From contig NZ_BAMS01000003.1 in NCBI RefSeq assembly GCF_000616095.1, positions 1 to 64,000 on the forward strand: a stretch of 64,000 nucleotides of DNA, given 5' to 3'. Source of the DNA: Sneathiella glossodoripedis JCM 23214. GTDB lineage: Bacteria; Pseudomonadota; Alphaproteobacteria; Sneathiellales; Sneathiellaceae. This document shows, piece after piece, positions 7,560 through 9,583 of the stretch; within the stretch, counting starts at the first letter, position 1; each line of letters begins with the position of its first letter. The position numbers and the translations under genes were made by a program. The notes under the pieces were generated by a model. That model saw nothing but the letters and a program-made list of their open reading frames with translations, searched no databases and was not told the origin of the DNA.

Positions 7560-8165
7560 TTAGATCAGACCGCTTTGCCAGACGGAAAGTGACACCACAA
7601 CCAGCATCAGGGCGGCAAGCCCCTGATTGATCCGCTGTAATGTCGCGGGGGACTGGACAATGCGCGCCAGCATGTCGCCGCCTGCGCACCATAGGGAATT
7701 GAGGGTAATCCCGATAATCTGGAAAATGATCTGGATCACCAGAAAGTTCATCAGGGGGGATAGCTCGGGACTTGAAAACTGCGAATAGGCGGCAATCAGC
7801 ATGGCCCAGGCTTTGGGGTTGAGCGGATGAACGAAAAGACCCGCAAAATAGCCACTTCTGGCGTCATTTCCGGCTTTCTTGACCGGCGAGAAAGCGATTT
7901 TCCACGCGAGATAAAGAATATAGGCGGCTGACAGGATCAGGAAGGTTATCCGCAAGGCAGGGAAAATCTCGAACAGAGTGCCAAGGCCTGCAGCGACGCC
8001 TATTCCGACCAGCAGAAATCCCGATGACGTTCCCAGAACAAAGGGCAGGGACGCGCGATACCCATAACGGGCACCTGCCGCCATCAAGGCCATGTTGGCC
8101 GGACCGGGGGAGCCGATCATGGAGACAGCAAAAAATATGATTATAACGATTGTATCTATTGTCAT
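7560..8165 (-). CDS. LysE/RhtB-family amino-acid exporter
   Basis: This is a 201-residue inner-membrane exporter of the LysE/RhtB family, which expels amino acids or related small molecules. About six hydrophobic segments are visible, together with the family signature near the N-terminus (SPGPANMALMAAGARYG) and the conserved HPLNPKAW segment in the middle. The start at 8165 (MTIDTIV) gives a normal family length; the frame is open further upstream but that part overlaps the divergent regulator gene. It faces a MocR-type regulator across 93 bp containing several repeated boxes, one of which lies inside the first codons of this gene. Control by that regulator is therefore likely. The substrate cannot be told from the sequence. 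Confidence 0.88.
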   Translation of the reverse strand: MTIDTIVIIIFFAVSMIGSPGPANMALMAAGARYGYRASLPFVLGTSSGFLLVGIGVAAGLGTLFEIFPALRITFLILSAAYILYLAWKIAFSPVKKAGNDARSGYFAGLFVHPLNPKAWAMLIAAYSQFSSPELSPLMNFLVIQIIFQIIGITLNSLWCAGGDMLARIVQSPATLQRINQGLAALMLVVVSLSVWQSGLI

Positions 8166-8249
8166 TGGGAAATCTCTGGATTGTATCGATATAATTTTAT
8201 ATTGTATCAATATTGTATCCGTAAATTGGAGAATTGTACTAAGTACAAT
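8149..8249. promoter_or_regulatory. Probable MocR operator: four ATTGTATC boxes and a 17-bp palindrome
   Basis: The lysE–MocR divergent region carries four identical direct repeats ATTGTATC at 8149–8156, 8180–8187, 8201–8208 and 8212–8219. Start-to-start distances are 31, 21 and 11 bp, close to three, two and one helical turns, so all boxes lie on one face of the DNA. A perfect palindrome ATTGTACTAAGTACAAT (8233–8249), whose arms resemble the box, sits ten bases before the MocR ATG. MocR regulators such as GabR and PdxR are known to bind spaced direct repeats. Assignment to this regulator is inference from position. Confidence 0.65.
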
Positions 8250-8258
8250 AAAATCAGC

Positions 8259-9583
8259 ATGCGCTCGAGCGAGATAGTTTACGAATTGCGACTGCAGATC
8301 AAAACCGGTCATTTGCGCCCCGGTGACAAATTGCCGACCCAGCGGGATATGGCATGGGAATTCAAATGCAGTCTGGGAACGGTGACCCGCGCCTATGCGG
8401 AGTTGGAACGGCTGGGACTGACTTACGGTGAAGTGGGCCGGGGAACTTTTGTCGCCGAGCAAAGTGATCTGGAGCAGCGCTTGAGCCCACTGTCTTCCTT
8501 TGCCACTGATTTTGGTCATGGGGGAGTTGGGGTCGATTTGTCCCTGAACCAGTTTTATCACGCGGAAACGGATCAGGCGATGAGTTTTGCGATGAGGCGC
8601 ATTGCCAAGCGCGAACCCTACGCCGATTACAGCAACTATAACGACACCCGTGGGCGCTATCAGGATTTGGAGGTGGCGCAATCCTGGCTTGAAGAGATTC
8701 TCGGCGGGTATTGGTCGCTGGACAAACTGATGATTACGCAAGGGGGGCAAGGGGGGCTTTTTCTTGCGATGAAGGCGCTAACCTCCCCCGGTGACACAAT
8801 AGCAACCGAAGCGTTCGGCTATCCGGGCATCAAAGCCGCAGCGTTGGAGGCGAACCTGAAAATTCAGGCGGTGGAGATGGATGACTACGGGATGCGACCG
8901 GAGTCTTTTGCGGCGCTGTGCGAGCGTCACGATATTAAACTGCTGGTCACCAATCCCACTGATCATAATCCGACGGGAACGACCCTGCCGCTGGAGCGGC
9001 GCGAAGAGATTACCGTCATTGCCCGAAAGCATAATGTCATCATTGTCGAAGATGCGGTTTATGCCCCGTTTCAGGTGGAGCCGAGCAAAAGCTTTGTGGA
9101 ACTTGCGGGCGATGTCAGTATCTATATTACCAGCTTTTCCAAGGTGTTCAGCCTGCTTTGCGTGTTGGCTACATGATCGCACCTGAAGATCTGATCCCCA
9201 AACTGATATCAGTATCCAGAGCAATCAGCTGGACAAGCTCCACCATTCCCCTTGATCTGGTCGCGGATCTGGTGACGCAGGGGGTCATATCCCGGCACAA
9301 GCGGTATCTTATTCAGGAGGGAAACCGGCGATTTACAATGGCGCTGGACATTTTGGGGAGCTGGATCAATCCGGTTCACCATCAAATTCCGGGGTTCCTG
9401 CCACATGTTTGGATCCGGATGCCCGGCACCACCACACCCAGCGAGTTCATTTCGCTGGCCCGTGATAAAAAGGTGAATGTCATGGGCGGAGATCGCTTCG
9501 CCATGAGCAAGTCGCTTGATGATCATTATGTTCGGGTGTGCCTGATGGCTGTGCCCAATAGTGACCGGTTGGAGCTTGCCTGA
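8259..9583 (+). CDS. MocR/GntR-type transcriptional regulator with aminotransferase domain, one frameshift
   Basis: This is a regulator fusing a GntR winged helix-turn-helix (about residues 1–70: RPGDKLPTQRDMA, GTVTRAYAELERLG) to a class I aminotransferase-like domain that binds pyridoxal phosphate. The cofactor lysine is in SFSKVFS, and the NPTDHNPTG and EDAVYAPF motifs are present. The frame breaks at the CC of 9152–9153. One extra C gives SPALRVGYM and a complete protein of about 441 residues, normal for the family. The ATG at 8259 is chosen because the DNA-binding domain starts there, although no strong Shine–Dalgarno sequence precedes it. It is divergent from the LysE exporter and probably controls it through the repeats between them, with an amino-acid–PLP adduct as a possible effector. 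Confidence 0.85.

Follow-up and report, generated by a model that had tools for sequence, protein, structure and literature searches.

The locus

In the window (the whole 64-kb stretch of DNA analysed), a gene for a LysE/RhtB-family exporter and a gene for a MocR-type regulator diverge from an intergenic stretch with 26% GC. An 8-bp sequence is repeated several times between and within these genes and is followed by a palindrome, which raises the question of whether these elements form an operator, and for which of the two genes. The features concerned are as follows.

7560–8165, minus strand: lysE/RhtB-family exporter gene, 201 aa, start codon 8165–8163 (Pfam LysE, 9.7e-13)
8149–8156, plus strand: direct box ATTGTATC inside lysE codons 4–6; operator role uncertain
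8158–8165: box-like ATTGTCAT, overlapping the lysE start codon (CAT, which is ATG on the minus strand)
8180–8187, plus strand: direct box ATTGTATC, particular to this genome and absent from the list of conserved positions
8201–8208, plus strand: direct box ATTGTATC, 11 bp ahead of the box at 8212
8212–8219, plus strand: direct box ATTGTATC, 21 bp (two turns) ahead of the palindrome
8221–8225: position of the GTCAA element, which reads GTAAA in the window
8233–8249: perfect 17-bp palindrome ATTGTACT-A-AGTACAAT; putative core operator ATTGT-N7-ACAAT
8259–9583, plus strand: mocR regulator gene (Pfam GntR, 2.6e-13; Aminotran_1_2, 8.6e-16), with a frameshift near 9146–9157

The original prediction listed ATTGTATC at 8149, 8180, 8201, and 8212, and all four coordinates were verified on the plus strand, giving spacings of 31, 21, and 11 bp. 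The perfect palindrome that it described between lysE and mocR was located at 8233–8249, leaving a gap of nine bases (8250–8258) before the mocR ATG at 8259, and the box said to lie within the target gene does sit in the coding sequence of lysE, on the minus strand. The box at 8180 and the adjoining GATATAAT (8188–8195) constitute an imperfect palindrome. A promoter scan of the region placed no clear consensus promoter convincingly relative to the boxes.

The product of mocR combines a GntR winged helix-turn-helix with an aminotransferase-like domain, the architecture of the MocR subfamily, and the lysine that binds PLP, in the motif SFSK, is retained throughout the regulator alignment. The immediate neighbours of the gene are lysE and a nucleoside hydrolase. 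In its own genome mocR has no full-length open reading frame: the frame breaks right after the SFSK motif and the C-terminal part resumes in another frame, owing to a one-base gap at 9146–9157 relative to five relatives. The aligned part of the orthologous regulators contains no stops, and the frameshift may represent either a recent breakage (a pseudogene) or a sequence error. It had gone unremarked in the original prediction. Because of it the claim of a working switch in this genome is weakened, while the locus class is unaffected; barring a sequencing error, the switch may no longer work here.

Conservation within the genus

A search of 24 genomes of the genus, including the genome of the window, found an orthologous regulator in 20 others (43–54% identity over up to 295 residues), and in all 20 a divergent lysE orthologue lies beside it. 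The intergenic regions were anchored on the palindrome, and since the anchor demanded ATTGT-N7-ACAAT, the presence of the half-sites ATTGT at 8233 and ACAAT at 8245 in 21/21 loci means that every locus supplied one. ATTGT at the offset of 8201 is exact in 16/21 loci (18/21 with at most one mismatch), and at the offset of 8212 in 7/21 (17/21 with at most one mismatch, i.e., matching at four or more of five positions). These two boxes lie three and two helical turns upstream of the palindrome. The GTCAA element at 8221–8225 is near-invariant, with C at 8223 in 20 of the 21 loci, the window reading GTAAA.

A counterpart of the box at 8180 was sought in the 20 relatives and none was found. Instead, an inverted ACAAT at 8181 and a direct ATTGT at 8190 are each exact in 12/21 loci, the window having neither. 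The plan of the genus thus consists of direct boxes at 8190, 8201, and 8212 followed by the palindrome, spaced 11, 11, and 21 bp; one locus (L009) appears by eye to contain an additional unit of exactly 11 bp.

The conservation check proposed earlier for relatives carrying the lysE–mocR pair, run on these 20 loci, therefore favours the boxes at 8201 and 8212 and the palindrome, goes against 8180, and is partial for 8149. The four boxes do not stand as one unit, the first occurring in nearer relatives only; as judged from the alignment, the conserved unit is formed by 8201, 8212, and the palindrome. The palindrome, previously treated as an addition to the boxes, is in fact the most conserved element. 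Because the sites are kept in about 20 related species, we propose that the array is the operator of the adjacent MocR, most likely serving self-repression via the palindrome and control of the divergent lysE via the direct half-sites, and assign to this reading a probability of roughly 0.8. The original suggestion of a MocR operator for the divergent pair thereby gains strong support from the orthologous loci, and lysE is the probable target.

The box within lysE

The box at 8149 corresponds to the lysE codons Asp-Thr-Ile (GAT ACA ATC on the minus strand). ATTGT occurs at this position in 7/10 nearer orthologues and in 0/11 farther ones. Among nine nearer orthologues with Thr at this site, seven use ACA, compared with 43 of 210 counted Thr codons in these lysE genes. 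The codon choice leans towards a constraint at the DNA level, but it is not conclusive, as the genomes are related and 5’ codons are often AT-rich. At the offset of ATTGTCAT (8158–8165), ATTGT is found in three nearer loci.

Distant homologues and alternative readings

The class-level sample comprised 26 distinct upstream regions of distant alphaproteobacterial homologues, which were the best-scoring loci and not a random draw. In 19 of these 26, the 100 bp preceding the aligned start of the regulator contain ATTGT-N7-ACAA, where mononucleotide shuffling predicts about 0.0003 occurrences per locus; the sites often span a possible start codon. GTCAA is present 12 bp upstream of the palindrome in 15/26. 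Among the 19 palindrome-bearing loci, the retrieved stretch contained a lysE match only at L034, L038, and L071. Because it precedes distant homologues that are mostly not beside lysE, the palindrome is probably the ancestral site of autoregulation; the direct boxes directed toward lysE are most simply viewed as a genus-level extension of it. GTCAA was also considered as the -35 element of lysE (reverse complement TTGAC), a candidacy weakened by its retention in distant loci, most of them without a lysE match.

Several distant loci, among them L036 and L081, have upstream of the regulator a short divergent open frame whose apparent start coincides with ATTGT-type sites. These frames begin M-x-T-I or M-x-T-M, and Pfam returned no matches above cutoff for them.

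The same distribution bears on the reading in which the site serves autoregulation of mocR alone and the lysE promoter is a mere bystander, since mocR homologues with a neighbour other than lysE also have the palindrome and GTCAA upstream. We consider this improbable, given that lysE is divergent in 20/20 orthologues of the genus and that direct boxes toward lysE are conserved besides the palindrome. It is very improbable that another regulator of the GntR family uses the site in place of the adjacent MocR. Half-sites of the TTGTA type are frequent in that family, and the boxes are intact here next to a frameshifted mocR; across the class, however, the core site follows the start of MocR despite changes of neighbour.

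Chance expectation and rarity

In 20,000 dinucleotide shuffles of 8130–8258, ATTGTATC never occurred twice or more (0/20,000), and 20 of the shuffles contained some 8-mer at least four times. A perfect 8+1+8 palindrome arose in 182 shuffles (0.9%). The box array is thus well beyond chance, while the palindrome by itself is weaker evidence, being surprising at only about the 1% level. That the repeats reflect nothing but the low complexity of an AT-rich intergenic region and of N-terminal codons is hardly credible: the coding position of box 8149, the lack of conservation of box 8180, and the modest rarity of the palindrome speak for it, but the shuffles yielded no multiple copies of the box, and 8201, 8212, and 8233 are conserved at constant spacing across genomes with regulators of about 50% identity. 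A chance origin is already contradicted for the core; it is possible for the boxes at 8149 and 8180 taken singly.

Exact ATTGTATC occurs seven times in the window, where 1.6 occurrences are expected, and ATTGTATC-N3-ATTGTATC has a single occurrence in the 3.63-Mb genome. Of the 24 genus genomes, 21 have this locus tagged by the extended motif GTCAA-N7-ATTGT-N7-ACAAT with at most one mismatch; in the genome of the window the match is unique. Further operators were sought elsewhere in this genome, and the near matches inspected by eye seemed to be coding or to lack the extended motif. Boxes resembling ATTGTATC form a second cluster in this genome (L042, G000:C11:557672–557690), in apparently coding sequence.

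Comparison with known MocR operators

MocR motifs have been described as two to four boxes, direct and/or inverted, separated by whole helical turns, with a type of three direct boxes plus one inverted box accounting for 14 regulons (Suvorova and Rodionov 2016, PMC5320631). The array at this locus is of that form, with TGT-containing direct and inverted boxes, between two and four in number, at helical-turn spacing. Operators of GabR, TauR, and PdxR resemble it in having direct repeats separated by two or three turns, at times with an inverted box (PMC5320631), and differ in their target genes and in the sequence of the box, which in TauR, for example, is CTGGACYTAA.

The closest half-sites are those of EnuR/EutR (EhuR), whose operator consensus is cited as ATTGT-N6-ACAAT in PMC8739950. 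The half-sites ATTGT and ACAAT are common to both, whereas the spacer is N7 here and N6 there; this locus also differs in having additional direct boxes and lysE as neighbour in place of ectoine genes. The best NCBIfam model for the regulator is EhuR, although the score of 235 bits, obtained for the N-terminal fragment only, is below the cutoff of 480; the separate C-terminal piece adds a further 66 bits. No genes for ectoine uptake or catabolism are present among the immediate neighbours.

In regulon content there is a likeness to PdxQ, whose regulons, according to PMC5320631, take in LysE/YggA transporters and COG384 (PhzF-related) genes. The locus has lysE, and a PhzF-like frame, read from translations and lacking a database match, lies near three distant homologues with the same core (L033, L035, L037). 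In a point of difference, no PLP-metabolism gene was seen adjoining this locus. The arrangement is thus of an already described kind, of which this locus, with its N7 palindrome, is a new instance as far as PMC5320631 and PMC8739950 show.

Proposed mechanism and significance

In the proposed scheme, MocR would repress its own gene by binding the palindrome and would control the divergent lysE through the direct half-sites, which lie at distances of two and three helical turns. An amino-acid-like effector may bind the PLP-bound aminotransferase domain and, by shifting the seating of the dimer on the array, would allow export. The scheme draws on knowledge of the family, by which repression is the most likely mode, with activation by MocR possible. 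We tentatively add, as a suggestion that is itself unlikely, that a MocR with an ancestral palindrome gained a one-turn direct-repeat array extending into the lysE start, so as to constitute an extended nucleoprotein switch for the export of an amino acid.

With this analysis, an uncharacterised lysE–mocR pair gains a concrete putative operator and predictions at the level of single bases. The genus also provides a natural series of divergent operators, about twenty in number: the palindrome keeps its place in all of them, while direct boxes are gained, lost, or displaced by helical turns. Such a series would help to examine the use that head-to-tail MocR dimers make of operators combining direct with inverted sites.
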